Assembly: GCF_008831285.2 (NCBI RefSeq)
Contig: NC_045144.1
Span: forward strand, 8,409,886 to 8,473,885
DNA from: Nymphaea colorata
Taxonomy: Eukaryota; Streptophyta; Magnoliopsida; Nymphaeales; Nymphaeaceae
Length of the DNA: 64,000 nt
Direction: 5' to 3'
Numbering within the stretch: the stretch's first letter is position 1; each line of letters begins with the position of its first letter. A model generated the notes under the pieces. That model was given only the letters and a program-made list of their open reading frames with translations, did no database searches and was not told where the DNA came from. Shown here piece by piece: positions 12,821 through 64,000 of the stretch. The position numbers were made by a program, and so were the translations under genes.

Positions 12821-12825
12821 TCAAC

Positions 12826-20880: not shown

Positions 20881-20898
20881 CCGCTATTCCACTTCATA

Positions 20899-24308: not shown

Positions 24309-24380
24309 CTAGCGATCAGTCCAAAAGCTGATGCATTCTCTATTCCCAAGTCTCCACTCAACTTTGTCTTGAATCCAGCT

Positions 24381-25786
24381 TCACCCCCATCGCAGTCCTT
24401 TCCAACCCCAGCTCTGGTTAGTAGCTCTTTTGAAGGTCCAAAGACTGTGATATTTCAAATACCTCTCTTTAAAAAGGTAGGCCCAAGGGTCCCCACTGAT
24501 CAAAAGCTGGCAGCATCGACTGGCTAGCATCGCTCTATTCACATCCTCCAGTCTTCTAATACCAACTCCTCCCTCCTTAACAGGCAGGCACATCTGATCC
24601 CAGCTAACAAGATGCATGTGTCTAGCGCCTTCTTCGTCATTCCACAAAAATTTGATACATGTTTGCTGTATTTTTTTTAAAACAACTTCAGGCAATCTAA
24701 AAACTATCATCCAATAGTAAGGCAAAGTCATCAAAACATACCTGATGAGAGAAAGCTGACCCACATAAGACAATAACCGAGCCTTCCAACCAGCCAACCT
24801 CTTCTCCACCTTAGTGAGGAGTGGCAGGCAAAGTGCTTCTGTAAGTCTACCCAAAAACAAAGAGAGCCCAAGGTACTCCGAAGGGAGGTCCCATTGGTCC
24901 ATTGTAAGATCCGTTGAATTTCACTACTCTGACAGTCCACCACCATGGTTTTAGCAAAAATCTCAGGCTTTTGCTTGATCACCTTCATTCCAGCAAGACG
25001 TTCAAAATCCTCCAAAACAACTTTGGTAGTAGTAATGGTTTCCTTAGTGGCCTTAACCAACATATTCAAAATCCTCCAAAAAAACTTTGATAGTGGTAAT
25101 GGTTTCCTTAGTGGCCTTAACCAACATAACCACATCATCTGCAAACATCATAGCACAACCCTTCAGCCTCACACAACGGATTTTGAGAAGAAGAATGTTT
25201 TGGCTAATCGTTTCCTTGGTTCTATTAAACATCTCCATGACAATGAAGAAGAGGTAGGGGGTAAAGGATCACCTTGTCTCAGCCCGCGCCTCCCATGGAA
25301 TTTCTCACACATCCTTCCGTTCACTAAGACTCTATAGGACACCGAGGTAATGCATTGCATGATAATAGCAATCCATCTAGGATGGAAGCCCAAAAACTTC
25401 ATACTATTTTTTAATAAATTCCATGAAACTCTATCATAAGCTTTCATTAGGTCCAGCTTTAAACAACAGCCTCCTTTATCCCAAAAGTCTTTATAGTTAA
25501 TGGTCTCATTCACCCACAATATGTTATCATGGATGTGTCTCCCTTTCAAAAAGACTACTTGGTTAACGTTGATAATACGTTCAAGGATGGTCTGCATTCT
25601 ATTGACAATAACCTTTGTGATGATTTTGTATATAGTGTTACAAAGAGAGATGCGTCTGTAATCATCTACTTTCTTAGAGTTATTTTTTTTAGGAATGAGA
25701 CAAATCATAGTCCCATTGATGTTCTTCGCTATTTTTCCAGAAGAGAAGAAATCTTTCACCGCCTTCACCACATCAATGCTAATCAT
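24381..25786 (-). pseudogene. LINE 2 reverse transcriptase
   Basis: The frame 25786-25169 contains NGTMICLIPKK, YRRISLCNTIYKI, QVVFLKGRHIHDNIL, CLKLDLMKAYDRVSW (motif A Asp intact) and LRQGDPLPP. A frameshift then leads to CAMMFADDVVML (FADD intact, about 25150). Next comes a 64-base internal duplication (25001-25128), which shifts frame because 64 is not a multiple of three. The C-terminal part continues in 24902-24381 with GLSLFLGRL, LSLIRYVLMTLPYYWM and CLPVKEGGVGIRRL, all typical plant L1 blocks. Both catalytic centres survive, but the frame does not. Confidence 0.92.
25001..25128 (-). repeat. 64-bp tandem duplication inside LINE 2 RT
   Basis: TTCAAAATCCTCCAAAA starts at 25001 and again at 25065, and each copy ends CCTTAACCAACAT. 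The copies differ at a few bases. The duplication lies immediately after the FADD box and shifts the reading frame. Confidence 0.9.
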
Positions 25787-26479
25787 CGCCCAACACTTCT
25801 GAAAGAAGTAGTTAGGGAAACCATTAGGACCAGCAGCACTATCCTTATCTAAACTCTACATTGTTGCATACACGTCCTCCTCCAAGATAGGCTTTAAGAG
25901 CTGATCATTTTCAGAATCTATTATCTTAGGTATGCTGTCAATACCTGCAAACAACATTCCTTTTGCTTCGTCCATAGCTAATACCTTGTGAAAATAATCA
26001 GTGCACACTTCAAGAATCTGCCCACTCTATACATATTCAGTGCCATCACATTCCAGACTTTTGATCTTCCATTTAGCTTGCCTGGATTTAGCCATCGCAT
26101 GAAAAAAGGAGGTGTTTTTATCTCCCTCTGCAAGCCAATGAATACATGATCTTTGCTTCCACATTACCTCCTCCATGAGAAGAGCCTGAGTTAGTTGCTT
26201 CCTCACCCTGTGTTCCTCATCAATTGCACCCTCAATACCTTGTGCACCCCTCTAGCCTGCTTTGAAGGATGGCGATGTTATCATTAAGATTACCAAAAGA
26301 ATGCGTGTTCCAATCTAAGAGAGCCATTCGCAAGCGATTAAGCTTAACTAGGAGACGCATCATTGAGCACCCCCGGACCTCCCCTCTTCAAGATTCTTGC
26401 ATCACTTCCGTTACTTTCATATCCAACAACCAAGGATTGAAGAGCCTAAACGGCTTCTGGCCTCATGAATCATCAATTG

Positions 26480-32344: not shown

Positions 32345-33145
32345 TGTTGGGTTGGGTCCAGCCTCAAGTGAGGACCCGACCCGACCAATCACTTAAGTGA
32401 CGGGCTGAGGAAAAGGGGAGGGCACCCGATGGTGCCCCCAATCACCCTCACGTCCCTCTCTCTTGTGGGTTTTCTTTTGGGGAAAAGAAAAGAGGGCTTC
32501 CCTCTTGTGGCCGCTCACAGCAAGAGAAGATGAAGGCAAGGAAGAGAAGAAGGAGAAATCGCTGCAAGCTTGCGTGGGTTGATCGGCACACTAAGAAGAG
32601 AGAGGAAAGACAAAGAAGAGAGAGGAAATGAAGGAAGTCTTCATTGGGAGATCTCTTTCTTATTTCTTTGGGGCTCTTTATTTCATTCATACAAAAGAGT
32701 GTTATTGTTCTCTTGAGTTCACTATTTTTCTTAAAACAGTAAGGATATTATTGCTGGTGTATTTGGCTCCCTTTCTTGATGTATAGAAAGTCTCTCTTGC
32801 CCGTAGTTTTATCCCATTATTTGGGGGTTTTCCACGTAAATTAGTGCCTCTTGTTTCCTGCATTATTTAGCATATATTTTGATATATGTTGCTGCAACAT
32901 TGGTGTTGGAAACTCGATCTTATGCTCGCAGTCTTATGATTTTGATTTTGAGCAGTTTTGCACATCTCCGACTGTCAAACTAGTTGGTTTGGGCTGTTTT
33001 ATTGTTGTTGAAAACTGCCATTAGCTGCGTAATTATTGGACAAATATATTGTTGAAGTTTGGGAGTGTTTGTGTTAGCTTTGAGAGTTGTTTTTGGCTGG
33101 TTATTGTCTTCTTAAACATTCTTTTGAGGGAATACATCTATAACA
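32345..33145 (+). repeat. copia 5' LTR
   Basis: 801 bases beginning TGTTGGGT and ending CTATAACA, matching the 3' LTR along the whole length. A pyrimidine/purine-rich leader-like segment (CTCTCTCTTGTGGG, GAAGAGAGAGGAAAGAC) lies in the first half. Confidence 0.95.
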
Positions 33146-33148
33146 AAG

Positions 33149-33160
33149 TGGTATCAGAGC
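33149..33160 (+). promoter_or_regulatory. copia primer-binding site (initiator-Met tRNA)
   Basis: TGGTATCAGAGC lies three bases after the LTR end, the standard Ty1/copia primer-binding site. Confidence 0.95.
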
Positions 33161-33189
33161 CATGTTGGTTGTGTTCATTCTTATTGAAG

Positions 33190-33913
33190 GTTGGAGTCGA
33201 CCTCCACTATGATGGTCTCTCTAAATGGAACAATTGGACTATATGAAAAGCAAAAATGAAGGATTTGTTGTACTGTAAAGATTTATATGCACCTATTGAG
33301 AACAACAGGCCAGCGACAAATGAAAAATGAAAATTATTAGGTAGGAAAACCATTGGCACCATCAGACAATGGTTAGATGATTGTGTGTTTCATTTGGTAT
33401 CCACAAAGACGAGTGCGAAGTCGTTATGGCAGAAATTGAATGATCTTTACGAGAGGAAACCAGCTGGAAACAAGACTTTATTGATTAGGAAATTGGTAAA
33501 TCTGAAACTTAGAGAGGAAAAACATGTGTCAGAACATTTGAATGAAGTGTAGAGCATAATCCATCAATTGTCAGCCATGAAAATATATTGGATAATGAGT
33601 TACAAATACTCTTATTGCTTAGTTCTCTTCCGACATTTAGGAGACTTTAGTTGTTTCTTTGAGCAACTCTGCTCCAAATTGTGTGCTAACGATGAAGCAT
33701 GTAACCAGCATCATTCTAAATAAAGAGACAAGGAGAAAGTCTCTTGGCACTACTAACTCACAAGTGCTAGTGATGGGAGACAGGGACAAACAAAAGAATC
33801 GTAACAAATGGCATGACAGGTCAAAATCTAGGTCCAAATCAAGACCCAAGATGACAGGTAAATGCTTTTACTGTGGTATTCTAGGTCACAAAAATATTGA
33901 TTACAAGAAATGA
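33190..33913 (+). pseudogene. copia gag
   Basis: Readable gag begins LHYDGLSKWNNWTI, with a stop at about 33244, then WLDDCVFHLVSTKTSAKSLWQKL.DLYE and LVNLKLREEKHVSEHLNEV, typical of the UBN2/gag region. The zinc knuckle at about 33859-33906 is CFYCGILGHKNIDY. The last ligand of the CX2CX4HX4C pattern is Tyr instead of Cys. Frameshifts and stops (33244, 33328, 33550) kill the ORF. Confidence 0.88.
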
Positions 33914-34039
33914 AAAGAAGAAAAGGAACAAAAAAAGAAGAGTCAAGAGAATGTGAAGCCAAAATAGTACATTGCAGTTGCTTCAGATAATGAGGTAGTA
34001 TTATTTTTATTTGAAGAAAATGATTGTCTTACAGTTCAG

Positions 34040-34450
34040 AATGGTGATTCTACATGGATTTTAGATACTGGAGCATCATATCATGTCACACCATGTAGAG
34101 GGTTGTTCTTATTCTATAGAGCATGTGATCTTGGAGTAGTTCACATGGACAATAGTGACACTTCGAACATTGTTAGGATAGGAGATGTTTGTATTGAGAC
34201 GAACACAGGATGCAAGTTGACTTTGAGAGATGTAAGATATGTTCCAGATCTTATAATGAATCTGATTTCTGCAATAAAACTAAGTAAAGATGAATATTGT
34301 ACTTCATTTAGTGAGACTGGTTGGAAAATGATAAAGGGGATACTAGTTTTGGCTAGAGGAAGCAGATTTGGCTCTTTGTATGGGATGAAAACTCGAATCA
34401 GTAGTGTGGAGATAAATGCAGTTACTGGTGGTACTTCGTCAAATTTGTGA
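34040..34450 (+). pseudogene. copia protease
   Basis: STWILDTGASYHVTP (about 34048-34092) is the copia aspartic protease active site with DTG intact. The frame then continues GDVCIETNTGCKLTLRDVRYVPDL.MNLISA, the usual protease-to-integrase sequence, and ends at a TGA (34448-34450) where LWHxRLGH is expected. Confidence 0.92.
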
Positions 34451-35289
34451 CATAAGAGGTTAGGTCACATGAATCAAAGTGGAATTGATTTGCTCACCAA
34501 GAAGAATTTGTTACCAAAGGCAAATGGTGCACAGTTATTTCTTTGTGATCATTGCTTGGTTGGTAAGTTGCACAAAATTTCTTTTCAGAAAAAATGGTCT
34601 TGAAAAACTAAAGATGTATTAGATTTAGTTTATTCAAAAATGTGTGCGGACCCATAAATGTAACATCTAAAGGTGGAGCATCATATTTTGTTACATTTAT
34701 TGATGATGCATTTAGGAAGGTGTGGGCCTTTACAATGAAAAGCAAAAGTGAAGTAAGTAGTATCTTTATGACATTTCATGTAGTGGTTGAGCGTACGACT
34801 GGTAAGAAGATGAAGAAACTGCGTACAAGTAATAGTGGTGAGTACGTAGCTTCTTCTTTACGAGATTATTGTCTAAAACATGGTATTAAACATAAAAAGA
34901 CAGTTTCATATACTCAACAACATAATGGAATTGCAGAAATGATGAATAGAACTATAATTGAGAGAGTCAGAAGTTTGTTATCTAGCTCTACGTTACCTAA
35001 GTATGTTTGGGCAGAGGCAATGCATACTATAGTTTATTTGATAAATAGATCTCATTTAATGCCTTTAGATGGAGATATTCCACAGAGAGTTTGCTCAGAT
35101 GAAGAGGTTAAGTATGACCACCTTAGAGTTTTTGGTTGCAAAGCATTCATGCATGTACCTAAAGAACATAGAACCAAACTAGATGATAAAACTATTCCTC
35201 TAATATTTCTTGGTTATGTGTTCATGAGCCAATCTGTGCAGGACCTGAAGAATTTTTATCTGAGCATGGTGAAACTGATGAAAATGTAG
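34451..35289 (+). pseudogene. copia integrase
   Basis: The HHCC zinc domain is readable as HKRLGHMNQSG...LCDHCLVGKLHK (34451-34580), then a stop at 34602. The core follows as GGASYFVTFIDDAFRKVWAF and LRTSNSGEY...KHGIKHKKTVSYTQQHNGIAE. The family motif at the second catalytic Asp is LRxDNGGE(Y/F). Here the Asp position is Ser and Gly is Ser, so the DDE triad is broken. The C-terminal GKR-like region leads to HLRVFGCKAFMHVPKEHRTKLD and FLGY. Confidence 0.93.
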
Positions 35290-35529
35290 AGAAAGAAGAA
35301 ATAGAGACAGATGAGCAGTATAAAGATGAAAGCCCTATGGAGACTCAAATTGATCATGAGCATGAGTTGGACGGAGAGCTTCCTTCTCATTCAAAACAAA
35401 TTGAGGAGCAATTGGGAAGAGGTAAAAGAACACGTATGCCATCTACTAGATATTCTACTGATGAATATATTATGTTTATAGATAGTAGAGAGCTAGAATT
35501 CTATGCAGAGGTGTTAGATGATGCGCATA

Positions 35530-36345
35530 AAGATGAATGAATTAAAGCTATGGAAGAAGAGATGAATTCTTTGTATAAGAATCACACTTTTGATTTGGTA
35601 GAGCTACCAAAAGGTAAGAAACTGTAGCAGAATAAGTGGGTATACAAACTTAAAAATGAAGATCAAGACAAGTTAAGATACAAAGCTTGATTAGTAGTGA
35701 AATGTTTCAAGCAAGAAAGAGGTATTCACTTTCATGAAATTTTTTCTTCTATTGTTAAAATGTCATCTATTAGGGTAATACTTGGTTTGGTGGCATATCT
35801 AGACTTGGAGTTGGAGCAGTTAGATATAAAAATTACTTTTTTTCATGGAGATCTAAAGGAAGGAATCTATATGACACAGCCAGCAGGTTTTGTGGTTGAC
35901 AGGAAGACACATGGTATGTAAGTTAAAGAAGAGCTTGTATAAACTTAAACAAGCACCTAGACAGTGGTACAAGAAATTTGATGCTTTTATGATAAATCAA
36001 AAGTATTAAAGGTCGCTTGTAGATCATTGTGTTTATATCAGAGAGTTCTCATCAGGTATCTTCAGTATTTTGTTGTTATATGTAGATGACCTGCTTATTG
36101 TTAGATGAGATTGTCAATTGATTAATCAATTGAAGAAGGACACCAGCAAATTCTTTGATATGAAAGACTTGGGGCTAGCACAACAGTTGTTAGGCATGAG
36201 GATTGTTCGTGATAGAAAGACCAAGAAGTTGTGATTATCACAAGAGAAATACATTGAGAAGGTGCTTAGTAAGTTCAATATAAAAGATGTCAAAACAGTA
36301 AGTACACCTTTAACAGTACATTTTAAATTGAGAAATGAGCAATGT
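35530..36345 (+). pseudogene. copia reverse transcriptase
   Basis: Motifs in order are EEMNSLYKNHTFDLVELPKGKK, NKWVYKLK, RGIHFHEIFSSIVKMSSIR, LEQLDIKITFFHGDLKEGIYM (motif A Asp intact), MTQPAGFV, then after a frameshift LLYVDDLLIV (about 36075-36105, catalytic YVDD intact). They are followed by DMKDLGLAQQLLGMRI and EKYIEKVLSKFNI. Stops at about 35625, 35688, 36008, 36106 and 36232 prevent translation. Confidence 0.94.
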
Positions 36346-36379
36346 CAATCCTCAATAGGTTAGAAAGAAAGAATGGAGA

Positions 36380-37050
36380 AGGTACCATATGCCTCCGCAG
36401 TAGGAGTCTCATGTATGCTATGGTTTGCACATGCCCAGACTTGGCTTATGCAGTTGGTGAAGTTAGCAGGTTCTTGTCAAATCCAGACCAGAAGCATTGG
36501 GCAGCAGTGAAGTAGATCATAAGGTATCTTAAAAATACTTCCAATTATTGTTTATGTTTTTGTGAATCTAACCAAGAGATGCAAGGTTTTGTTGATGCAG
36601 ACATGGCAGGTTACTTGAACTCTATGAAGTCTCTTTCTGGTTATGTCTTTACTTTTGTAGTGGGTTGTATCATAGCAGAATAGGTTGCAGAAGTGTGTTA
36701 CTCTTTCCACAACAGAGGCGGAATATATTGCAGCAACTGAAGCTTGTAAAGAGTTGTTGTGGATGAAGAGTCTTCTTCATGATATAGGTCTTAGTCAGAA
36801 GACGTATGTGTTGCATTGTGATAGCCAAAGTGTTATACATTTGGCAAAGAATTTAGCGTTTCACTCAAGAACCAAGCACATTGATGTCAGATATCATTGG
36901 ATTTATGATGCACTTGAGCAAAAACTAATTCAGTTAGAGAAGATATATACAGAGAAGAATCCTACAGATATGATGATGAAGTCTCTACCTAAAGAGAAGC
37001 ATGACAAATATAGAGACCTAGCTGGGATGACTGCCTTTAAGGCAATGTAA
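36380..37050 (+). pseudogene. copia RNase H and C-terminus
   Basis: The region YAMVCTCPDLAYAVGEVSRF and the RNase H motifs QEMQGFVDADMAG (Asp) and LSTTEAEYIAATEACKELLW (Glu) are typical. The HIDVRYHWIYDALE block and the tail MMMKSLPKEKHDKYRDLAGM end at TAA 37048-37050, close before the polypurine tract. The last 121 codons are an unbroken frame from 36685. Confidence 0.94.
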
Positions 37051-37088
37051 TAATTTTTGTTCATTTTGTAAGTATGATCCCTCTCTTG

Positions 37089-37105
37089 AGGCTGGAGGGA
37101 GAGTT
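37089..37105 (+). promoter_or_regulatory. copia polypurine tract
   Basis: AGGCTGGAGGGAGAGTT immediately precedes the 3' LTR start at 37106, the expected position of the plus-strand primer. Confidence 0.88.
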
Positions 37106-37917
37106 TGTTGGGTCGAATCCAGACTCAAGTGAGGACCCGACCCGACCCATCACTTAAATGACGGGCAGAGGAAAAGGGGAGGGCACCCGATGGTGCCCCC
37201 AATCACCCTCACGTCCCTCTCTCTCGTGAGTTTTTTTTTTTGGAAAAGAAAAGAGGGCTTCCCTCTTGTGGCTGCTCACAGCAAGAGAAGAAGGAGAAGA
37301 GGAAGGTAAGGAAGAGAAGAAGGAGAAATCGCAGCAAGGTTGCGTGGGTTGATCGGCACGCCAAGAAGAGAGAGGAAAGACAAAGAAGAAAGAGGAAATG
37401 AAGGGAGTCTTCATTGGGTGATCTCTTTCTTGTTTCTTTGGGGCTCTTTCTTTCATTTGTATAAGAGAGTGTTATTATTTTCCTGAGTTCACTATTTTTA
37501 TTAAAACAGTAGGGATATTGCTAGTGGTGTATTTGGCTCCCTTTCTTGATATATAAAAAGTTCCTCTTGCCTGTGGTTTTTTACCTCATTATTGGAGATT
37601 TTTCCACGTAAATTGGTGTCTCTTGTTTTCTGCATTATTTAGCATATATTTTGATATTTATTGCTGCAACATTGGTGTTAGAAACTTGATCTTATGCTCG
37701 CAGCCCTGTGATTTCGATTTTCAGCAGTTTTGTGCTTGTCCGACTATGAAACTAGTTGGTTTAAGCTGTTTTATTGTTGTTGAAAGCTGCCATTAGCTGC
37801 GTAATTATTGGACACATATATTGTTGAAGTTTGGGATAGTTTGTGTTAGCTTTGAGAGTTGTTTTTAGCTGGTTATTGTCTTTTTAAACATTCTTTTTGG
37901 GGAATACATCTATAACA
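37106..37917 (+). repeat. copia 3' LTR
   Basis: 812 bases beginning TGTTGGGT and ending CTATAACA. It is homologous to the 5' LTR with scattered substitutions and small indels. Confidence 0.95.
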
Positions 37918-38608: not shown

Positions 38609-39010
38609 GTAACGTCTTCTTACTAGTCTGTTTCTATGCCTATATCGATTGCTTGAAAATAATTTTTTTTCTGGGTGATTTTGTCTCTCTTCAATGTTTA
38701 TTTGAATTATTTTAAAGAAACATCGTTGAGGAAAATCGATGCTCTGTCCTTGTTTGGTTTAATCTTTGCACTTACAGCTAAGTTGTGCTTTTATATGCTT
38801 AGGGTAGCTTAAGCTGTTTGATTTTATATATTACTGCATGTCGTGTTACAAAGAAGGGGAAGGGTATTTTGGCTCTAGCTTTTTTATATATAAGCAGCGC
38901 CTAGGTGCGTCTAAGTGGGCCTAGGCAAAAAGGCCAACAATTTTTATTTCAATTTTTTTCTTTAGTTATATTAATATGTCAAAATTTTTAATGTCTTCAC
39001 TTCCATGGCT
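38609..39010. other. intergenic, no gene seen
   Basis: No further exon of the plant-mobile/DUF1985-like relic is recognised. A CCTAGG.GCGTCTAAGTGGGCCTAGG patch lies near 38905. Confidence 0.35.
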
Positions 39011-39116
39011 GCCTCTTCTTCTTCCTAGGTGTTCCATCCCTATTCCTTCTTATTGCTTTCGTCCCCGTTCTCTCTCTCGACCTCTCTCCCAATCTATGTT
39101 CATGATAGGTTTCACT
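39011..39116 (+). repeat. duplicate of the leader region of the 46-kb gene
   Basis: GCCTCTTCTTCTTCC, TTCCATCCCTATTCCTTCT and TTCATGATAGGTTTCACT match 45928-46044, the sequence just upstream of the three-exon gene. The similarity stops exactly where the foldback element at 39117 begins. Confidence 0.85.
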
Positions 39117-45780: not shown

Positions 45781-46104
45781 TCTTCCGCATGAGAGGACCT
45801 TTCCGCCTTCTTCCCAAATATTCCGAACTGTCCATCTTCAGAAACCCTAACAAAGTCTCGCTGTATCACAGTGCCGTGCACTTCTTTTCTCTGGTTCGGG
45901 AACTCTTTTTGCCCCTTTTTCATATTTGCCTCTTCTTCTTCCTACGTGTTTCCATCCCTATTCCTTCTCCATGCTTTCGTCCCCGTTCTCCCTCTCTCTC
46001 TCTCTCGACCTCTCTCCCTATCTGTGTTCATGATAGGTTTCACTTCGCGTCCAATTTTTGTTTGTTTGCAGACTGATTTTTTGCTGCGCTGACCATCAAG
46101 CAAG
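45781..46104 (+). promoter_or_regulatory. presumed 5' region of the three-exon gene
   Basis: CT-rich leader-like sequence (CCTCTTCTTCTTCC, CTCTCTCTCTCTCTCGACCTCTCTCCC) runs into the ATG at 46105. Part of it (45928-46044) is duplicated at 39011-39116. No clear TATA box is seen, and the transcription start is unknown. Confidence 0.4.
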
Positions 46105-46649
46105 ATGGGCTCTCGTTTCTGGACACAGGTGAGTTTCTTTTCTCAAAGCCTTCTGGTTTACCAGGTCTTGACGTTTCAGTTTCATAGATGATTACAATTT
46201 TTGTAATGATTTCTAAGCAGGAGCTGCGGCCGGAGCATCAAAGGAACAAGCCCGAGGTATGGATTAAGAAAACATTCTTGTTACTACTTACTAGGCCAAC
46301 TGAATCAAACCAATGTAGCAGAAAAATCAGTGATCTCAACCTTCTTTTCAAAATGAAATTAGTGATATCTTCAAGGAATTGATTCATGTCTTTTGCATTT
46401 GGGCAGGTCAGCAGACCTAGGGTGAGCGATCAAGGATTAAGCACACCTCGGGAAGTGGCGCCAAGCGAAGAGGAAAAGAAGATAATGCCTCACACGGAGG
46501 AATTTGAGGCGATGGTGGACGCTGTTATCAATCACAATGCTGATGTGGCCAGCAACAAGCGGAGACTACCCATCTTTGTGGCTCTAACTGATCCCACTCA
46601 AAGGGAGTTTTGGCTTAAAGGAGCATCCGAGCCTTCTCGGGAGCATTAG
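46105..46649 (+). CDS. uncharacterised 100-aa protein, three exons
   Basis: Exon 1 (46105-46128) encodes MGSRFWTQ and ends CAG|GTGAGT. Exon 2 (46221-46256) encodes ELRPEHQRNKPE and ends GAG|GTATGG. Exon 3 (46407-46649) follows TTTGGGCAG and ends TAG. All three junctions are phase 0 with GT-AG borders, and introns are 92 and 150 bases. The product is hydrophilic, Glu/Arg/Pro-rich at first, then EEFEAMVDAVINHNADVAS and RRLPIFVALTDPTQREFWLKG. It has no signal peptide or membrane helix. I do not recognise a family. A decayed paralogue at 19780-20165 keeps the exon 2 donor and the exon 3 acceptor, which supports the splice model. Frames here are intact. Expression is unproven. Confidence 0.6.
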
Positions 46650-46822
46650 CTTGATCAACATTGCCTTACCATTCTTTCTAAGTATATGTGTTCGCTTGCA
46701 TGATACAAAGAATTTTCCATTGTGAGAAGTTGTGATGCGTTTGGAGGATGACTACTTAAGACATACGTTAAAACTTTTACCTGGCAAAATCTTATCGATT
46801 CTCTTATTCGGTGGCACCTCTC

Positions 46823-46871
<49 letters not shown>

Positions 46872-47519
46872 TAGGAAGGATTTCTTGCATATTTAATTTA
46901 GAAGTTGCTCTAGCCAAACAATGTGTTTTTAATCCAACAAACACAGGGTACTACTTATCAATAACACAGAACACAGAAAATGCCAGAGTTTGGAGTCATT
47001 GGATACAATCCAAGAAACAATGTGTTTCTAATATCACAAGTGATTCTTTCAAAGCAACATCAGAAAAATGTGTTTCGCTTTTTCTATTCCATAGAAGCCG
47101 GGAGAGGTCTTTACATCCCAGCACTCCACTTTGTGCTTCACTGGGATTTCGCTAAACTTTTAAATAATGTATCGTCTATTATGTATAGAGAACTACTACC
47201 AGTCCTAAGAAACCAAGAAATGAAAGTGTAGATTATGTAATGCAAGCTGCACGTATAGCCATTGAGTTGGTAACTGTTTTTTAACATAAAAGTTGCTGTC
47301 CAGACAGAAAACTAGAATTTTTCTTTGCGGTTTGTCCACATTTTAGTACCAGGTAACACAACAGAGCTGTACACTTCCATTACAAAATCAAGTGGAGAGG
47401 TGGGCAGCGCCGACTGTGCTACTTTATAAAGTAAAATCTTAAGAAAATTCAGGACAATCTCGTGAAATAATAAATTATTAATAATTAAATAAATTTCACT
47501 AATTGATATGTTGATTAAA
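46650..47519. other. 3' flank and intergenic with (TA)n
   Basis: A (TA)n tract lies at about 46828-46866. The 83-codon frame at 46980-47231 has no recognised domain. Confidence 0.35.
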
Positions 47520-48300
47520 AACAAAGACGTAAAGAAAGGGAAGTAAAGAACCTATTACAAAATTAGTTTAGATAGGAAGGAAGAAAAAGGAAAGCAATTC
47601 AAAGAATTTGCACGAATGGCCATGACGCCATTGTTTTGACGCAAAAAAAAAGAAGAAAAAATCCATTTATTCGGCTATAAAGGTAGTTGGCTGATTTTTT
47701 GCATCCACTATATATATATAGCAGATGCCAACAAGATGGTTTGAGCAATAGAGGTTGTTTGAATAACACGGCTTCAAAAATCAAATTTTATAACAAGCAA
47801 TATTGCAAAAATACTAGCTAATGCATCGATAAACATGTGAATTAAAATATTGTCGGGAAGAATTTTTCAATAATCGAAGAAAAGCGAAAAGATCACTATA
47901 GAAGAGTTACAAATGTTCGACAGTCCTGCAAGTTTAAAATCATTTTTTATTGGGCTTTAGTAGCAAAAGTGAAAGAAGACTGTTCTTAAACCAAGGAATC
48001 TAGGGCTCGTGTCCCTGCTGGGGCTCCCTCAACTTGGTTGTGGGGGATTGTAAATTGTAATTATGCAGGAATATTAATGTTTTAGGGAGACGCCTTTTCA
48101 TACATGCAACACTATGAAAAAGACTTCAGTAATATTTTCTTCATTTTGAATTAAATTCTTAATTGTTCCTGTATTTTATCTGTCTTGAATACACCCTTAA
48201 GTGACAAAGGTAGAAATTTGATCTAACAGAGTTTGCTGTTAAGTAAAAGAAAAGGGTTTTAGCCTTTAAGTGACCGATAATTAAAGTAAAAAAATTTTAA
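47520..48300 (+). repeat. segmental duplication blocks D and B, locus 3
   Basis: 47540-47625 matches blocks at 12960-13017 and 20725-20795. 47615-48265 matches 10540-11225 at length. Together with the gene at 46105 this reproduces the order E-D-B seen partly at 19.8-20.9 kb. Confidence 0.85.
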
Positions 48301-52250: not shown

Positions 52251-52801
52251 CTCGACATCTTGATCTTTGGCATTTCATGGTGATGAATGTTCATTCGCTC
52301 GACTTCCGTGTGGTCATCCTGGCTTTGATGGGGAACGAGCAGCCAATTTAGCACGTCAGACGTTCCGAGGACCCCACCCTCATTCAAGCTAGACATCTTG
52401 CTTTTTGGCATTTCGTGCTAATGAAGGTTCACTCGCTCAACTTCTGCGTGGTCATCCTGGCTTTGATGGGGAGTGCGCAGCCAATTTGGCATGTCAGACG
52501 TTCTGAGGACCTCACCCTCATTCCAGCTAGACATCTTCATTTTTTGCATTTCGTGCTGACGAAGGTTCACTTGCTCAACGTCTGCGTGGTCATTATGGCT
52601 TTGATGGGGAGTGTGCAACCAATTTGGCATGTTGGACACTCCAAGGGCCCCACCCTCATTCTAACGAGACATCTTGATTGTTGGCATTTCATGCTCACGA
52701 ATGTTCATTAGTTCGACTTCTGCATGGTCATTATAGTTTTGATGGGGAGCACACAGCAAATTTGGCACGGCGGACGCTCAAGGGGCTCCACCCTCATTCC
52801 A

Positions 52802-52915
52802 ACCTGCTGCTGCATGTCCCAATTCATATAGACACTGAGATCGTCATTTAAGATTTGTCAGGCGCTCATGCACCAGCCTCTTCTCACAAGTATTTCTCTC
52901 CCCACCCTCATTCCA
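52802..52915 (+). repeat. 114-bp interspersed module 1
   Basis: A non-138-bp segment inserted between two CCACCCTCATTCCA words, including AATTCATATAGACACTGAGATCG and CACCAGCCTCTTCTCACAAG. It is the most diverged of five such modules. Confidence 0.88.
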
Positions 52916-53327
52916 GCGAGAGATCTTGATCTTTAGCATTTCGTACTAACGAAGGTTAACTCGCTCGACTTCTGCATTGTCATTATGGCTTTCATGGGGA
53001 GCACGCAGCCAATTTGCACGTCGGATGCTCCGAGGGCCCCACCCTAATTCCAGCGAGACATCCAGATCTTTGGCATTTCGTGCTGACGAAAGTTCACTCG
53101 CTCTACTTCTACGGGGTCATTATAGTTTGATGGGGAGCGCACAGCCAATTTGGCATGTTGGACGTTATGAGGGCCCCACCCTCATTCCAACAAGACATCT
53201 TGATCTTTGGCATTTCGTGCTGATGAAGGTTCACTCGCTCGACTTCTACGTGATCATTATGACTTTGATGGGGAGCGCATAGCAAATTTGGCACGTCGGA
53301 CGCTACGAGTGCCCCACCCTCATTCCA

Positions 53328-53441
53328 ACTCGTTGCAACACATCCCGCTTCATATAAACACAGCGATCGTCATTTCAAATTTGTCTATCACTCATGCACC
53401 AGCCTCTTCTTACAAGTATCTCTCTCCCCACCCTCATTCCA
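53328..53441 (+). repeat. 114-bp interspersed module 2
   Basis: Same layout, with CTTCATATAAACACAGCGATCG and CACCAGCCTCTTCTTACAAG. It starts 526 bases after module 1. Confidence 0.9.
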
Positions 53442-54817
53442 ATGAGAAATCTTGATCTTGGGCATTTCGTGCTGACAAAGGTTCACTTGCTCAACTTCTA
53501 CGTGGTCATTGTGGCTTTCATGGGAGCGTGCAGCCAATTTGCACGTCGGATGCTCTGAGGGCCCCACCTAATTCCAACGAGACATCTAGATCTTTGGCAT
53601 TTCGTGCTGACAAAAGTTCCCTCACTCCAATTCTATGTGGTCATTATAGTTTGATGGGGAGCGCACAGCTAATTTGGCACGTCAGACATTCCAAGGGTCC
53701 CACTCTCATTCGAGCGAGACATCTTGATCTTTGGCATTTTGTGCTGATGAAGGTTCACTTGCTTGACTTCTACGTGGTCATTATGGCTTTGATGGGGAGC
53801 ACAGAACAAATTTTGCACGTCGGACGCTCTGAGGGCCCCACCCTCATTCCAGCGAGACATCTTGATTGTTGGCATTTCGTGCTGATGAAGGTTCACTCGC
53901 TCGACTTCTGTGTGATCATTATGGCTTTGACAAGGTGCGCACAGGCAATTTGGCATGTCAAACGCTCTTAGGACCCCACCCTCATTCCAGCGAGACCTCT
54001 TGATCTTAGTCATTATGTGCTGATGAAGGCTCACCCACTCCACTTCTATGTGGCCATTATAGCTTTCATGGGGAGCGCGCAGCCAATTTGGTACGTTGGA
54101 CACTCTGAGGGCTCCACCCTAATTCCAATGAGACATCTTGATTTTTGCAATTTCGAGCTGACGAAAGTTCACTCTCTCGATCTCTATGAGGTCATCATGG
54201 CCTTGATGGGGGAGCATAAAGCCAACTTGGCACGTCGGATGCTCCGGGGGCCCTACCCTCATTCCAGTGAGACATCTTGATAATTGGCTTTCATGCCAAC
54301 GAAGCTTTACTCGCTCAACTTCTGCATGGTCATTATGGCTTTGATGGGGAGCACGTAGCCAATTTGCCATGTCACACGCTCTAAGGGCCCCGCCCCCATT
54401 CCAGCAAGACATCTTGATCGTTGGCATTTCGCACTGACGAAGGTTCACTTGCTCGACTCATGCATTATCATTATAGCTTTGACAAGGTGCACACAGCCAA
54501 TTTGGCACATCGAACGCTCCTAGGACCCCACCCTTATTCCAGCGAGACATCTTGATCTTTGTCATTTCGTGCTGACAAAGGCTCACTCACACGACTTTTT
54601 CATGGCCATTATGGCTTTGATGGGGGGGCCTGCAGCCAATTTGGCATATCTGATGCTCTTGGGGCTCCACCCTCATTTCAGCGAGACATCATGATTGTTG
54701 GCATTTCATGCTGACGAAGGTTAACTCACTCAACTTTTGTGTGGTCATCATGGCTTGTATGGGGAGGTGCAAGCAATTTGGCACGTCGGGTGCTCGAAGG
54801 GCCCCACCCTCATTCCA

Positions 54818-54931
54818 ACTTGTTGTAGCACGTCCCGCTTTATATAAACACAGAGATCGCCATTTCATATTTGTCTCGCGTTTAGGCACCTACCTCTTCT
54901 TACAAGTATCTCTCTCCCCACCTTCATTCCA
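54818..54931 (+). repeat. 114-bp interspersed module 3
   Basis: Same layout, with CTTTATATAAACACAGAGATCG and CCTACCTCTTCTTACAAG. It is followed by the variant TATTGATCTATGGCATTTC. Confidence 0.9.
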
Positions 54932-55573
54932 GTGAGACATATTGATCTATGGCATTTCATGCTGACGAAGGTTCACTCGCTCAACTTTTGCGTGTTCATT
55001 ATGGCTTACATGGGGAGCATGCAGCCAATTTGGCACGTCAGACGCATTGAGGGCCCCACCGTCATTCCAGCAAGACATGTTGATCTTTGGCATTTCATGC
55101 GGATGAATGTTTACTCGCTCGACTTCTACATGGTCATTATGGCTTTATTGGGGAACGCACAACTAATTTGGCACATCAAACACTCAGAGGGCACCACCCT
55201 CATTCCTGCGAGACATCTTGATCATGGATTTTTGTGCTGACGAAGGTTCACTCGCTCGACTTCTACGTAGTCATTATGGTTTTGATGGGGAGCAAATAGC
55301 CAATTTGGCATGTCAGATGCTCCATGGGCCCCACTCTCATTCCAGTGAGACATCTTGATCTTTGGCATTTCGTGCTAACGAATGTTCACTCACTCGACTT
55401 CTGCGTGATCTTTACAGCTTTGACGAGGAGCACAAAGCCAATTTGGCACGTCGGATACTAAGAGGGTCCCACCCTCATTCCGGTGAGACATCTTGATTTT
55501 AGACAATTTGTGCTGGTAAATGTACACTCGCATGACTTATGCGTGGTTATCATGGCTTTGATGGGAAGTGGCC

Positions 55574-55762
55574 CAGGGGCGGAGGAAGGGGGGCCGCCTA
55601 GGCCATGGCCCCACCCCGGCCAATGAAAAAAAAATACATTGAAAAAAATAAAATTTTTAATTGCGCTATGTACTTTTTGGATTTGATTTAACTTTGGCCC
55701 TGCCCGGATCGAGAGGTTGAACTGTCGGCCTGCCCCTGAAGAAAATTTTGGCTCTGCCCCTG
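55574..55762. mobile_element. 189-bp MITE-like insertion in a satellite monomer
   Basis: The left end CAGGGGCGGAG and the right end CTCTGCCCCTG are inverted repeats with one mismatch. The interior is an AT-rich centre between GC-rich arms. It splits a monomer at GATGGG|AAG...GGGAGCGC. Candidate 8-base flanks GGAAGTGG and GGGAGCGC match imperfectly. No ORF is present. CAGGGGCGGAG-type ends are common in plant DNA transposons of the hAT-like non-autonomous kind (family recall, not verified). Confidence 0.7.
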
Positions 55763-57670
55763 GGGAGCGCACAACCAAATTGGCACGTCGGATGCTCCGA
55801 GGGCCCCATGCTCATTCCAGTGAGACATCTTGATCTTCGGCTTTTCATGCTGACGAAGATTCACTCGTTCGACTTCTGCGGTCATTATGGCTTTGATGGG
55901 GATCGCGCAGCCAATTTTGCACGTTGGACGCTCTGAGGGCCCCACCGTCATTCCAGCAAGATATTTTGATCTTTGGCATTTCATGCTGAGAAAGGTTCAC
56001 TCGCTTAAATTTTACATGGTCATTATGGCTTTGACGGAGAGCACACAGCCAATTTGGAACGTTGGATGCTTCGAGGGTCATTCCAACGAGGCATCTTGAT
56101 CATTATATTTCATGCTGACAAAGGTCTACTCGCTCGATTTCTGTGTGGTCATTTAGCACATTGGATGCTCTAAGGGCCCCACCCTCATTCTTACGAGACA
56201 TCATGATCTTTGGCATTTTGTGCTGACGAAGATTCACTCGCTCGACTTCTACGTGGTCATTATGGCTTTGATGGGGAGCGTGCATCCAATTTGGCACGTC
56301 GGACACTACGATACCCCACCCTCAATCCAGTGAGACATCTTAATCTTTGGCATCTTGTGCAGATAAAAGCTCACTCGCTGGACTTCTACATGGTCATTAT
56401 GCCTTTGATGGGAAGCACGCAGCCAATTTGGTACGTCGGACGCTCTGAGGGCCCCGCCCTCATTCCAACGAAACATCTTGATCTTTGGCATTTCGTGGTG
56501 ACGAAGGTTCACTCACTCGACTTCTGCGTGGTCATTATGGCTTTGATGGGGAGTGCGCTGTAAATTTGACATGTCAGATGTTTCGAGGGCTCCACCCTCA
56601 TTCCAGAGGGACATCTTGATCTTCGGCATTTCATGCTGACGATGATTCACTCATTCGACTTATGTGTGGTCATTATGGCTTTGATGGGCATCGCGTAGCC
56701 AATTTGGCATGTTGGATGCTTCGAAGGCCCCATCATCATTCCAGCGAGACATCTTGATCTTAGACATTTCATGTTGACGAAGGTTCACTCGCTCGGCTTC
56801 TACGTGGTAATTATGGTTTTGATCGAGAGCACACAACTAGTTTGGCACATTGGACGCTTCGAGGGTCATTCCAACGAGACATTTTGATCTTTGTGTTTCG
56901 TTCTAACGACGGTTTACTCGCTCGATTTCTGCATGGTCATTTGGCACATCGGACGCTCCAAGGGCCCCATCCTCATTGCAGCAAGACATATTGATCTTTG
57001 GCATTTCGTGCCGACGAAGATTCAATCGCTCAACTTATGTGTCGTCATTATGGCTTTGATGGGGGAGTGTGTAGCCAATTTGGCACGTCGGACGCTACGA
57101 GGGCCCCACCTTCAATGCAGCATGACATCTTGACCTTTGGTATTTGGTGCTGACAAAGGTTCACTCACTCGACTTCTACATGGTTATTATGGCTTTGATG
57201 GGGAGCGCACAACCAATTTGGCATGTATAACGCTCTGAGGGACCCACCCTCGTTCCAGCGAGACATCCTGTTTGTATGCATTTCGTGTTGATGAAGGTTC
57301 ACTCACTCGACTTCTGCATGATCATTATGGCTTTGACGAGGTGCGCAGAGCCAATTTGAAACCTCGAACGCTCCGAGGACCCCACCCTCATTCCAACGAG
57401 ACATCTTGATCTTTGTCATTTCATGCTGACGAAATCTTACTCACTCGACTTTTGCATGGTCGTTATGGCTTTGATGGGGACCCTGCAGCCAATTTGGCAT
57501 GTCCGATGCACTTGGGCTCCACCCTCATTCCAGCGAGACATCTTGATCATTGGCATTTCATGCTGATGAAGGTCCGCTTCTTTGACTTCTGCATGGTCAT
57601 TATGACATTTTATGGGTATGTGAAGCCAATTTGGCAGGTGAGGCGCTCAAAGGGCACCACCCTCATTCCA

Positions 57671-57784
57671 ACTCATTGCAGCATGTCCCGCTTCATATAA
57701 ACACAGAGATCATCATTTCATTTTTGTCTCTCGCTCAGGTACCTTCCTCTTCTTACAAGTATATTTCTCCCCACCCTCATTCCA
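57671..57784 (+). repeat. 114-bp interspersed module 4
   Basis: Same layout, with CTTCATATAAACACAGAGATC. It is again followed by the variant TATTGATCTATGGCATTTT. Confidence 0.9.
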
Positions 57785-59808
57785 GCGAGACATATTGATC
57801 TATGGCATTTTGTGTTGATGAAGGTTCACTCGCACTACTTTTACGTGGCCATTATGGCTTCGATGAGGAGCGTACAGCCAATTTGGCACGTCAGACGCTT
57901 CGAGGGCCCTACCCTCATTCCAGCAAGACATCTTGATCTTTGGCATTTTGTGATGATGAAGGTTCACTCGCTTGACTTCTACATGGTCATTATGGTTTTA
58001 TTGGGGAGCGCACAACTAATTTGGCACGTCAGAAGCTCTGAGGCCGCCACCCTCATTCCTGTGAGACATCTTGAACTTTGGCTTTTCGTGCTGACGAAGG
58101 TTCACACGCTCGACTTCTACGTGGTCATTATGGCTTTGATGGGGAGCAAGCAGCCAATTTGGCATGTCAGATGCTCCAAGGGACTCACCCTCATTCCGGC
58201 AAGACATCTTGATCTTTGGCATTTCGTGCTAACGAATGTTCACTCACTCGACTTCTACATGATCTTTATAGTTTTGATGAGGAGCATAAAGCCAATTTGG
58301 CACGTCGAACACTCTGAGGGTCCCACCCTCATTCTGGCGAGACATCTTGATCATTAGCATTTCATGTTGACGAGCGAGACATCTTGATTTTAGTCATTTT
58401 ATGCTGGTAAATGTTCACTCACATGACTTATGTGTGGTTATCATGGCTTTCATGGGGAGCGCACAACCATTTTTGCACGCTGGCCGCTCTGAGGGCCCCA
58501 CCATGATTCCAGCATGATATTTTGATCTTTGGCATTTCATGCTGATGAAGGTTCACTCGCTCAACTTCTACGTGGTCCTTATGGCTTTGATGGAGAGCAC
58601 GCAGCCAGTTTGGCACGTCGGACGCTCTGAGGGCCATTCCAACGAGGCATCTAGATCTTTGTATTTCGTGGTGACGAAGGTCTACTTGCTCGATTTCTAT
58701 GTGGTCATTTAGCACATTGGAAGCTCTGATGGACCCACCCTCATTCCTATGAGACATCATGATCTTTTGGCATTTCATGCTGATGAAGATTCACTCACTC
58801 GACTTCTACGTGGTCATTACGGATTTGATGGAAGCGTGCATCCTATTTGGCACGTAGAATGCTACAAGGGCCTCACCCTCAATCCAGTGAGACATATTAA
58901 TCTTTGGCACTTCGTACTGATAAAGGTTCACTCGCTCGACTTCTACATGGTCATTATGGCTTTGATGGGAAGCACGAAGCCAATTTGGCACGTCGGACGC
59001 TCCAAGGGCCTCGCCCCCTCTTTCCAACGAAACATCTTGATCTTTAGCATTTCGTGGTGATGAAGGTTCACTCACTCGACTTCTGCGTTTTAAACCAAAG
59101 TCGCATGCTCCAACGAGTCGACAACCGATTAAAATAAAATCAGATTTTGAGCGAGTTCGGAGCCGCTCAAAATGGAGTAGACCGCCCTTTTTTTTAAAAC
59201 AAAGAACTTTTCTTTTACATATTTTAAATAAAAAATGAACGTTCAAACAATATTTTCATTTTATATATATTTTATTAGATTTTATTAAATTTTATTTGAT
59301 TAAAAAAAAGGAGGAAGTATTCCGCGCTGCACGACACATAGTCGTGCGACGCGCAGTTGCACGATCGCGCTTCACACAGCGCGTGCACGATCACGTTATA
59401 GGATCACGCAACGCGGTCATGCGGTCGTTCAAGACGACCACTTTACGCAGTTGCCTGCGGCGGCCGTTGCAATGCACGGCAGCACGTTGCGCGCAGCACA
59501 CCTTTTACCTGGGCGTTGCTGCGCCTGGCGCGCAATGGCGTCCGGGCAGAAGCCTATAGCAAAGCAGACCCCCCCCCCCCCTCCTTTTCTTGCAAAAAAC
59601 CGCCCCCTAAGGGGCGGTTTTGGCTTTCTAGGATGGGCATTTGTCTTGCCCACACCCCAAAAGGGTGTTTACAGGGCTAATGGCCAATCCCACTTAGTCA
59701 AAACCTATTTTCTTTTAAAAAAATAAAAATAATTCAAAATTACGTGAAATTCGGATGAAAATATTGTGAAATTCAAAAAAATTCAAATTTTGAGTTTTGG
59801 TTCCAAAA

Positions 59809-59824
59809 CTCTCTATAAAAATGT
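59809..59824 (+). promoter_or_regulatory. candidate LTR TATA box
   Basis: CTCTATAAAAATGTCT sits between the GC-rich 5' part and a pyrimidine-rich leader (59905-59970), the expected U3/R border of an LTR promoter. Confidence 0.45.
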
Positions 59825-60172
59825 CTATAATCCTCCCTCTTGAGTATGAGCTAACCTTTAGAGAAACTCTAGTGGATTCTCACTTGAAAACTTAAAGTTT
59901 TTCTTGAGCTCTCTTTTTTTCATTTCCCTCTCCTTCTTTCATTTGCATTCTTCTTCTTCTTCTCTGATTTGGAGTAAGCTACAACTCTTCAAGGAAGCAC
60001 CAAAGATTTCTTGGAGGTCTCCTCTTCATCATCTTGGAGATTCATTCAAGGTGAGTCTAAGATCATTTCAAGCATGGTTGTTCATTTTCCTTAAGTTATT
60101 CCTCATTAGAGGTATGTATTCATCATCCCTCTCATTTCTCTCTTATTTGTTTTCCTTTGTTCATCACTTCCA

Positions 60173-60690
60173 TATGGCCATATGAGATAGCTCTCACTCT
60201 CTATTTTAGAGTCCAGAAGCTATGCTCGAGTGCTCTGGGGGTATGAAAAGATGAGATGATCTTTCATTTCATTATTGAATCATGTTCTTTCTTTTATTGA
60301 ATGTAGCATTGTTTTGGTTTTTCTTATTTCTTCTCTTCCTCATTTTCCTATGGCCATATGAGATAGCTCTCATTCTCTATTTTAAAGTCAATAGGCTATG
60401 CTCGAGTGCACCGAGAGTTTGAGATGAGATGTTATTTTATTTTATAATTGCATCATGTTCTATCTTTTCTTGAATGTAGTCTTGTTGTGATGTTTTTCTT
60501 TCATCTCATTTTAATCTCCCTATGGTCATATGAGATAGCTCTCAATCTCTATTTTAGAATCAAGAAGCTATGCTCGAGTGCACCAGGAGCATGAGAAGAT
60601 GAGATGATATTTCACTTTATGATTGAATCATGCTCTCTCTCTCCTTCCTTGAATATTGTTTTTTTTAGGATATTATCCATGCATAGTTAT
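60173..60690 (+). repeat. three tandem repeats of about 174 bp within the LTR-like insertion
   Basis: TATGG(C/T)CATATGAGATAGCT begins at 60173, 60349 and 60521 (periods 176 and 172). Each unit carries CTATGCTCGAGTGC and GAGATGAGATG. The units have diverged visibly. Confidence 0.93.
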
Positions 60691-61339
60691 TCGATTTTTC
60701 CTATCTATATATGAATGCACGGTGAAAATGAGAGTGTGGTTTGGGACTCTTTATTTTTATGCTAGTTTTTTAGGTTGGGGCTTGTCTAACCCGGAAAAAA
60801 CCCTCAGGAATATATAAATGTTAACATGCATTTGCATGTCATTTTGCGTTAATTTCTTTTTAAACATTTCTTTAAGAACCCTAATAAGCATCTTATCGTA
60901 TGGTTTGCTCTTCTTCCATACCCAATGATGGAAGAAGCATATTCCCTTGTAACAAACTAAGTAACTATGTTTTATGTTCATATACAAAAATATTTGTAAT
61001 CATGTTTTCCAAAATATTTTTGAAAGAACCCTTTCTATTGTGGCTTTGGAGACCTAGCTTAGGCTCTTGCATGAGTCCAAGCTTCAATCCGGCCTACATC
61101 AAACTTGAAGTCGGTTATTTTTTTATTTCTTGATTTCTAATCTCATGAGAACATACATGTATATACATGTTATATACATATATATGCACATGATTATTCC
61201 ATTTATCATTCTCTCTTTATATTTACATACTCTATTTTACAAATTTTCGTATCAATATGAAAGCATATATATATGAATGTCATACTTTCTCTCTCTAGAA
61301 TCTTCTATTTCTCTTTTCAAATCAAATGTCTACATCTAC

Positions 61340-61347
61340 AAATTTCT

Positions 61348-61421
<74 letters not shown>

Positions 61422-61689
61422 TCCATTTCTCTTCTTTTAAAATCTCTCTTTCTATTCAAATCAATGTCATTTTTACAAACTTTCATATATGTGTATATGT
61501 GATGGTATATACACAAGTATGTGCATCTCCTTCTATCTCCCTTTCTTTCTCTCTTTCTTTTAAAAGATTCATTTTTCCCCTCCACTTAAATTAAGACCTC
61601 ATTATCAAAAGCTTATATTATTACATATACACATATAAAGAATATGTATCTTCTCATCTTTCAAAAGTCTTTTATCTAATGATCGTTGA

Positions 61690-61735
<46 letters not shown>
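61340..61735. repeat. (TA)n and (TC)n microsatellites
   Basis: (TA)n over about 61350-61422 and (TC)n over about 61696-61733. Short frames here are artefacts. Confidence 0.9.
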
Positions 61736-61738
<3 letters not shown>

Positions 61739-62512
61739 TTATGAGAGCATTTCATCTTTTCCATTCTTTTAAACATTTTTCTCATAATCTTTTATTTACC
61801 GACTTCTTCATGACCAAAACTCAAGTAATGACCCAATATTTGATTCATGTTTGATGGTCTACAACCCCAATCCAATTTCAAAAACTTTTCCTTCTTGGTA
61901 AGAATATTTTTGTTAACTATAAAACAAAAATGTTAGATGTATGTTATGGTCGGAATGTCTTAGATGAATGTTGTAGTATGAATATTTTATTTTCTTTCAA
62001 TCATGTAGGATAAATGCATTCATGTATTCACAATCACTTAATATCACATATAATCACAAGCACCTCTCCAAAAGAATTTAAGCAAGATGAAATGGAGTTC
62101 TAACTAAGTAGTAACTGAATTAGAGTAAAATCTCAAACCTACTTAAAATCTTAAGAGAATACTAAAGAGAATTCAAAATGATTTCTCAAGCTTTTCGAAT
62201 GATCTTTACAAAAATTTCTCAATTCTAATTTTCCCTAAAACATTTCACATTCACAAATGATTCTTCAAAAACTTTTTCAAAAGTTTGAAACATCAAAACT
62301 TTCAATATTTACTTATACCACATATAGAATAAAAAAGATTTTTAAGTTAAAATGAAATGCATCAATAATAGACATAGCCTTTGAATTGATGACCCTTTGT
62401 AAAGGCACCGAGAACGGTTAATTCTCGTACCGACGGGTGAGTCCATTTTTCTCTAATTTTCAAAACAAAACTATTTTTTTGGAGCACTCCAAAAATTTTG
62501 GGGATGCGAACA

Positions 62513-64000
62513 GTCATCATTATGGCTTTGATGGGGAGCATGCAGCCAATTTGGCACATCGGATGCTACGAGGGCCTCACCCTCATTCCAGCAAGACATC
62601 TCGATCTTTGGCATTTCGTGGTGACAAAGGTTCACTCACTCGACTTCTACGTAGTCATTAAAGCTTTGATGGGAGTGCACAACCAATTTGCCACATCGGA
62701 CGCACCATGGGCCCCACCCTCATTCCAGCAAGACATCTTGTTCGTTGGCATTTCGTTTTGATGAAGGTTCACTCGCTCGACTTTTGCGTGATCATTATGG
62801 CTTTGACGAGGTGAGCACAGCCAATTTGGCATGTCTAGCGCTCCGAGGACCCCACCCTCATTCCAGCGAGACATCTTGATCTTTTTCATTTCGTGTTGAC
62901 GAAGGCTCACTTACTCGACTTTTGCATGGTCATTATGGCTTTGATTGGAAGCGTGCAGCCAATTTGGCTTGTTGGATGCTCTTGGGGCTCCACCCTCATT
63001 CCAGCGAGACATCTTGATTGTTGGCATTTCACGCTGATGAAGGTTAACTTGCTCAACTTCTGCATGGTCATTATTGCTTTTATGGGGAGGCGCAGCCAAT
63101 TTGGCAAGTCTGGAACTCGAATGGCCCCACCCTCATTCCAACTCGCTGCAGCACGTCCCACTTCATATAAACACAGAGATCGTCATTTTATATCTGTCTC
63201 GCACTAAGGCACCTACCTCTTCTTACAAGTATCTCTCTCCCCACCCTCATTCTAGCAAGACATATTGATCAACGGAATTTCATGTTGACGAAGGTTAACT
63301 CGCTCAACTTTTGGTTGTTCATTATGGCTTAGATGGGGAGCGTGAAGCCAATTTCGCACGTCGAACACGTCGAGAGCCCCACCCTCATTCCAACAAGACA
63401 TCTTCATCTTTGGCATTTCGTGCAGACGAATGTTTACTCGCTCGACTTCTACGTGGTCATTATGGATTTATTGGGGAGCGTGCAGCTAATTTGGAACATC
63501 AAACACTTTGAGGGCACCACCCTCATTCCTGTAAGACATCTTGATCTTTGGCTTTTCGTGTTGATGAAGGTTTACTCGCTCGAATTCTACGTGGTCATTA
63601 TGGCTTTGATGGAGAGCGAGCAGCCGATTTGGCACATCTGATGCTCCGAGGGCCCCACCCTCATTCCAGCGAGACATCTTGATCTTTGGCATTTCGTGCT
63701 GACGAATGTTCACTCACTCGACTTCTGTGTGATCATTACAGGTTTGAAGAGGAGCACAAAGCCAATTTGGCACGTCGGACACTCTGAGGGTTCCACCCTC
63801 ATTCCGGGGAGACATCTTGATCTTTGGCATCTTGTGCTGACGAGCAAGACATCTTGATTTTAGTCATTGTGTGCTCGTAAATGTTCACTCGGATCACTTA
63901 TGTGTGGTTATCATGGCTTTGTTGAGGAGCGCACAACCAATTTGGCACGTCGGACGCTCCAAGAGCCCCACCCTCATTCTAGTGAGATATCGTGATCTAC
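62513..64000 (+). repeat. 138-bp satellite array, right part (continues past window)
   Basis: About ten further monomers of the same satellite in the same orientation continue to the window edge. They include one 114-bp module and a block in the same register as 57671-58400, so the array was continuous before the large insertion. Confidence 0.96.
63141..63254 (+). repeat. 114-bp interspersed module 5
   Basis: Same layout, with CTTCATATAAACACAGAGATCG and CCTACCTCTTCTTACAAG. It is followed by the variant TATTGATCAACGGAATTTC. Confidence 0.9.

Follow-up and report, generated by a model that had tools for sequence, protein, structure and literature searches.

The right-hand end of the window, that is, of the whole 64,000-nt stretch of Nymphaea colorata DNA analyzed here, is occupied by a tandem repeat. 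TRF reported a period of 138 bp and multiples thereof from position 52254 across the array, and 55 units of this period follow each other head to tail, all on the + strand, which is the arrangement that characterizes a satellite array. The unit count was derived from 63 rows, of which three 20-bp rows representing module tails (see below) were dropped and five split pairs were merged. When the consensus monomer was compared with the window by blastn (E values up to 0.01), copies were confined to 52254–63985 and to the + strand. The last full unit ends at 63985, with the final 15 bases of the window lying beyond it. The two parts of the array, of 6835 bp and 1484 bp, agree with the approximately 8.3 kb over which the earlier note had seen landmarks every 138 bases. 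Only these 8.3 kb are visible, and the right end of the array lies beyond the window. The features are as follows:

52254..59088, + strand: 138-bp satellite array, left part (6835 bp; TRF, blastn); four units, module 1, three units, module 2, ten units, module 3, 19 units, module 4, and further units as far as the insert at 59089
52802..52899, + strand: 98-bp module 1; its TATA-like string is TATAGA, and copies of CCCCACCCTCATTCCA lie on either side
52920..53855, + strand: short higher-order unit, three monomers plus module 2, then three matching monomers (identities 0.87, 0.85, and 0.89)
53328..53425, + strand: 98-bp module 2 (alignment and boundary check)
54408..55823, + strand: higher-order block A, three units, module 3, five units; contains the 192-bp insert and lacks the 37-bp partial monomer
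54818..54915, + strand: 98-bp module 3 (alignment and boundary check)
55569..55760, strand not assigned: insert within a monomer, 192 bp, with short CAGGGGC-type inverted ends
55960..56196, + strand: deletion-variant pair, a 118-bp unit followed by a 107-bp unit lacking about positions 63–92
57262..58515, + strand: higher-order block B, three units, module 4, five units; 37-bp partial monomer at 58341–58377
57671..57768, + strand: 98-bp module 4 (alignment and boundary check)
59089..62516, strand not assigned: insert splitting one monomer, 3428 bp, with a 172-bp tandem repeat inside (2.7 copies)
62517..64000, + strand: 138-bp satellite array, right part (1484 bp; blastn), cut by the window end
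62732..63985, + strand: higher-order block C, three units, module 5, five units; 37-bp partial monomer at 63811–63847
63141..63238, + strand: 98-bp module 5 (alignment and boundary check)

Each of the 55 units is 79–92% identical to the consensus, and the pairwise identity of the monomers averages 78.3%, with 78.4% for neighboring units. As neighbors (0.784) are no closer to each other than units at large (0.783), there has been no recent local homogenization. With at most two mismatches allowed, 50 copies of the 16-bp box CCCCACCCTCATTCCA were counted, versus 0.04 expected. In the rest of the window, outside the array, only chance-level matches of 12–17 bases to the monomer or the module were found.

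The phase of the monomers is broken by five modules, each exactly 98 bp long and with identical boundaries in all five cases. Both flanks of every module carry CCCCACCCTCATTCCA, which corresponds to monomer positions 119–134, with at most one change, so that each module is bordered by 16-bp duplicates. The modules are 76.5–88.8% identical to one another (84.7–88.8% among modules 3–5). A derivation of the module from a diverged monomer was rejected, because its alignment to the monomer was not above chance. A sixth copy of the 40-base module core was not found in the window within 13 mismatches. The identical boundaries and the 16-bp duplication suggest that the module was inserted once and amplified afterwards, a sequence of events that we infer from the sequence. 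The module starts are spaced by 526, 1490, 2853, and 5470 bp, or by 526, 1490, 2661, and 2042 bp when the inserts are removed. Modules 1 and 2 are linked by a 526-bp unit consisting of three monomers and a module, and modules 4 and 5 are 14 units, or about 2.0 kb, apart with the 3.4-kb insert left out.

A higher-order organization had been claimed in the earlier note, and the comparison of units by rank bears this out. When the five units that follow each of modules 3, 4, and 5 are compared, those of the same rank are 86.8% identical (15 pairs), versus 76.8% for those of different rank (60 pairs). The contrast is weaker for the three units following all five modules (83.3% versus 80.6%). The order of the monomers along the array, which the earlier note had proposed to check by clustering, repeats block-wise to a degree above that of shuffled unit orders. 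With substitutions only, the best five-unit collinear run reached a mean z of 3.94, versus 3.33 as the top value of 500 unit-order shuffles, and the ten best five-unit runs averaged 3.50, versus a shuffle maximum of 2.02. The corresponding values for three-unit runs were 4.41 versus 3.84 for the best and 3.82 versus 2.60 for the ten best. When gap states were counted too, four-unit runs reached 7.86 versus 7.22 (300 shuffles); gap states taken as shared characters inflate the deletion-variant units, and the test was therefore repeated on substitutions alone. Collinear runs were present at lags 19/18, 33, 14, and 3, and seven of the eight runs tested were matched by only 0–10 of 20000 random draws. 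A duplication at lag 6 was reached by 577 of the 20000 draws and is thus not significant by identity alone; its support comes from shared deletion lengths. The deletion-variant pair at 55960–56196 is repeated with equal lengths at 56748–56984, and again at 58516–58752 with lengths of 120 and 105 bp. The collinear runs at several lags, controlled by shuffling, together with the shared insertions and deletions, support the higher-order organization.

The individual landmarks of the blocks can be placed in this framework. A common variant monomer had been described after modules 3, 4, and 5, and TATTGATC is indeed found there, at 54940, 57793, and 63263, but the string is not exclusive to these places, as it is present once more in the array, at 56989. 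That copy does not follow a module. The offsets of 674, 712, and 712 bases proposed for a second variant proved to be exact: CTTGATTTTAG lies at 55492, 58383, and 63853, and these are the distances that separate it from the first base of module 3, 4, and 5, respectively. The difference of 38 bases is made up of the 37-bp partial monomer in blocks B and C and a one-base deletion in block A. From the two equal offsets, descent of the blocks from one higher-order unit had been concluded. The equal offsets reflect the partial monomer common to B and C, yet the identity to C is slightly higher for A, which lacks it (87.4%), than for B (85.5%). Over the three upstream units, the module, and the five downstream units, A and B are 85.9% identical, and the K2P distances are 0.158 (A–B), 0.139 (A–C), and 0.163 (B–C). 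The match between A and B reaches beyond the blocks as far as unit 27/45 and includes the deletion-variant pair. Shared sites number 89 for A–C, 71 for A–B, and 67 for B–C. These counts speak against a simple tree with B and C as sisters, so that the blocks do not have a cleanly branching history; A may have lost the partial monomer, or blocks may have exchanged sequence. No regular, constant length of the higher-order unit was found, and the irregular spacing of the modules points to duplicated blocks with gains and losses rather than to a regular higher-order array. Since the module spacings differ, a single founding higher-order unit is a reconstruction.

Two inserts interrupt the array. 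The 192-bp insert is presumably a hAT-MITE-like element. The 3' end of the 3428-bp insert is, as we label it, LTR-like, and no clear target duplication was found around this insert. As it splits a monomer, it came later. The window as a whole is rich in retroelements: in a Pfam run on 20 of its 40 ORFs, domains of Ty3 gag, protease, and reverse transcriptase, a LINE reverse transcriptase, and a Copia element were found.

The substitutions in the monomers, counted over all 55 units, are unevenly distributed. Transition rates from the consensus are 0.24–0.28 at CpG; at CHG, where each class rests on about five consensus positions, they are 0.12 for C and 0.25 for G. The remaining C/G positions have a rate of 0.07 and A/T positions one of 0.02. 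For C at CHG, transversions (0.115) are almost as frequent as transitions (0.123), a result left unexplained by deamination. The overall pattern fits the expected outcome of long-term cytosine methylation. Methylation at CHG is a hallmark of plants, and the decay at CHG and CpG, with Ty3, Copia, and LINE domains nearby, fits a plant nuclear genome, with the reservation that CHG positions are few.

Several described satellites are suitable for comparison. VicTR-A of Vicia has, according to the passages describing it, monomers of 69 bp, so that 138 bp corresponds to a dimer, and circles of plant satellites are reported to occur in multiples of the monomer and of the higher-order unit (PMC2543021). 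The array resembles VicTR-A, as portrayed in these passages, in its head-to-tail monomers and in variants that are amplified in multi-monomer units, and amplification of blocks by exchange or via circles is plausible here as well (PMC2543021). Unlike VicTR-A, and compared by description, it has old blocks (85.5–87.4% identity), an irregular spacing, and an unrelated 98-bp module (PMC2543021). LDP_SAT1 of Landoltia punctata has the same monomer length of 138 bp, but neither of its two printed probes is similar to the consensus: the local scores of 16 and 15 compare with shuffled means of 14.0 and 14.3 and maxima of 24 and 23, the comparison covering the probe stretches alone (PMC7889562). In the other literature passages retrieved, "138 bp" refers to a range of subunit lengths (Vaccinium), to a satellite of the badger, or to part of a genome size (Musa). 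Six 14-base strings from the monomer retrieved no published paper. Exact-match searches gave no match, in collections that hold few plants: viral contigs were scanned with one pattern from the module and two from monomer junctions, and genome contigs with one of these junction patterns, which matches the array in the window just 8 times. The repeat is possibly an unnamed satellite family, differing from LDP_SAT1 in the stretches covered by the printed probes.

Among the alternatives, a protein-coding repeat is the least credible. As 138 is divisible by 3, a frame open across several monomers could encode a protein of 46-residue repeats, and the consensus indeed has a plus-strand frame with no stop in its 46 codons, with 218 codons open at 57701–58354. 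However, a minus-strand frame of the consensus is open as well, and in the 30 of the 55 units without gaps, in which stops and synonymous changes were counted, the plus frame contains 18 stops, versus 18.5 expected by column shuffling, while its synonymous share resembles that of the other frames. The three array ORFs tested had no Pfam match. With a stop count at the column-shuffled expectation, coding was rejected as extremely unlikely, and by the stops in these 30 units and the Pfam comparison of the three ORFs the array is non-coding, as is satellite DNA. A structured RNA or an rDNA spacer was likewise rejected, because the array has no Rfam match at gathering score; across the window, this score was reached only by a marginal tRNA at 7441–7514, outside the array, and ARAGORN, run with the bacterial code, found no tRNA. 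A hairpin or dyad was discarded too, because the monomer consensus (z −0.48) and the two of the five modules tested fold no better than shuffled sequences. In rDNA intergenic spacers, spacer promoters are active, and by analogy the 98-bp module might be a spacer promoter (a TATAAACA element) from which the satellite is transcribed. TATAAA is present in four of the five modules (TATAGA in module 1), and 16 of the 17 alignment columns from 92 to 108 are invariant. Yet a TATA-like string within AT-rich DNA is weak evidence, the modules are only 76.5–88.8% identical, those numbered 3–5 are kept no better than the blocks around them, and the array yielded nothing at the Rfam gathering score, the marginal tRNA lying elsewhere; we regard a promoter as very unlikely. 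If it existed, a promoter-like module in each higher-order unit might spread transcription starts over the array and feed RNA-directed silencing, an equally improbable scenario in which the module would be to the satellite what spacer promoters are to rDNA. A reading of the module as a plant snRNA promoter was dropped because, judged by eye, the TATA box would lie too near the upstream element.

Two further alternatives concern the surroundings and the origin of the array and are compatible with an old, decayed satellite as the explanation of the visible part. The visible array might be a pericentromeric edge, with the 138-bp family forming a CENH3-binding core further to the right. Higher-order organization and retroelement insertions are common at centromere borders, and the array continues off the window. 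The mean monomer identity of 78% and the K2P distances of 0.14–0.16 between blocks argue against it, as they indicate no recent homogenization in the visible part, and we consider a centromeric edge rather unlikely. Degradation is expected to be stronger at the edge of an array than in the core, so that the absence of ongoing homogenization may not hold beyond 64000. A Tat/Ogre-type element could also have given rise to the repeat, by way of tandem repeats located in its 3' UTR, a possibility with a precedent in plants, as the FabTR satellites of Lathyrus sativus are described as Ogre-derived (PMC7004042). The window often carries retroelement domains, and, like FabTR in the sections of that paper concerned with it, the tandem array lies in a retroelement-rich genome, with elements inserted in the expanded array (PMC7004042). 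Unlike in the FabTR case as described there, no Tat/Ogre coding region adjoins the array on its visible left side (PMC7004042). Among the 20 ORFs scanned, no gag-pol domain adjoins the array, and no pair of repeats brackets its left side, the one within the window, so that an array downstream of gag-pol and between LTRs was not seen on that side. Matches to the monomer or the module in the rest of the window do not exceed chance, and the insert at 59089–62516, which splits a monomer, came later. An origin from a retrotransposon is a tentative option of low probability.

Taken together, the array is a satellite with higher-order repeats, irregular and old, and of an ordinary kind of satellite DNA. 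Very probably, we see the left edge of an old, non-coding nuclear array that decayed after its blocks had been amplified. The satellite would most likely have grown by unequal crossing-over, or by excision and reintegration of circles. A single insertion of the module into one monomer would have produced the 16-bp duplication, and module-bearing blocks would then have been amplified together with their neighbors, giving rise to the higher-order pattern. The visible part would subsequently no longer have been homogenized, and deamination of methylated cytosines, along with insertions, would have led to the decay of the array. If the array has a role at all, it may be that of passive heterochromatin. 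The combination of block duplications that can be ranked by age, a marker module, and methylation-type decay makes it possible to trace the rise and death of higher-order repeats in a plant genome. The main relevance is for the annotation of repeats in the host, and the array does not depart from the known behavior of satellites.

The 3.4-kb insert in the 138-bp satellite array (59089-62516) carries a 172-bp tandem repeat, present in 2.7 copies, and terminates with GGGGATGCGAACA, just ahead of the point at which the interrupted monomer restarts. This insert is perhaps a truncated solo LTR, though it has no clear target duplication. The window also includes the following features:

1-2796, minus strand: Ty3-type retrotransposon pieces (gag, protease, RT)
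14015-15016: LINE-like region with an RT domain
23679-25855: LINE-like region with an RT domain and a zf-RVT domain
about 32345-33145 and 37105-37917: LTR pair of a Copia-type element, 0.8 kb each

The Ty3-type pieces extend beyond the left end of the window, and the two LINE-like regions lie on opposite strands. The LTRs of the Copia-type element (32345-37917) have TG...CA ends and are 89.3% identical to each other; the target duplication GGCAT flanks the element on both sides, and TGGTATCAGAGC within it is presumably the primer site. All structural parts of this element are present, yet it is old.

Nine segment pairs (aligned over 63-586 bp, 84-92% identity) were found among 10129-13319, 19420-20887, 39010-39116 and 45927-48292, and are perhaps copies of dispersed elements. 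At 21413-21641, there is a perfect 116-bp tandem duplication, which reflects either a recent event or an assembly effect.
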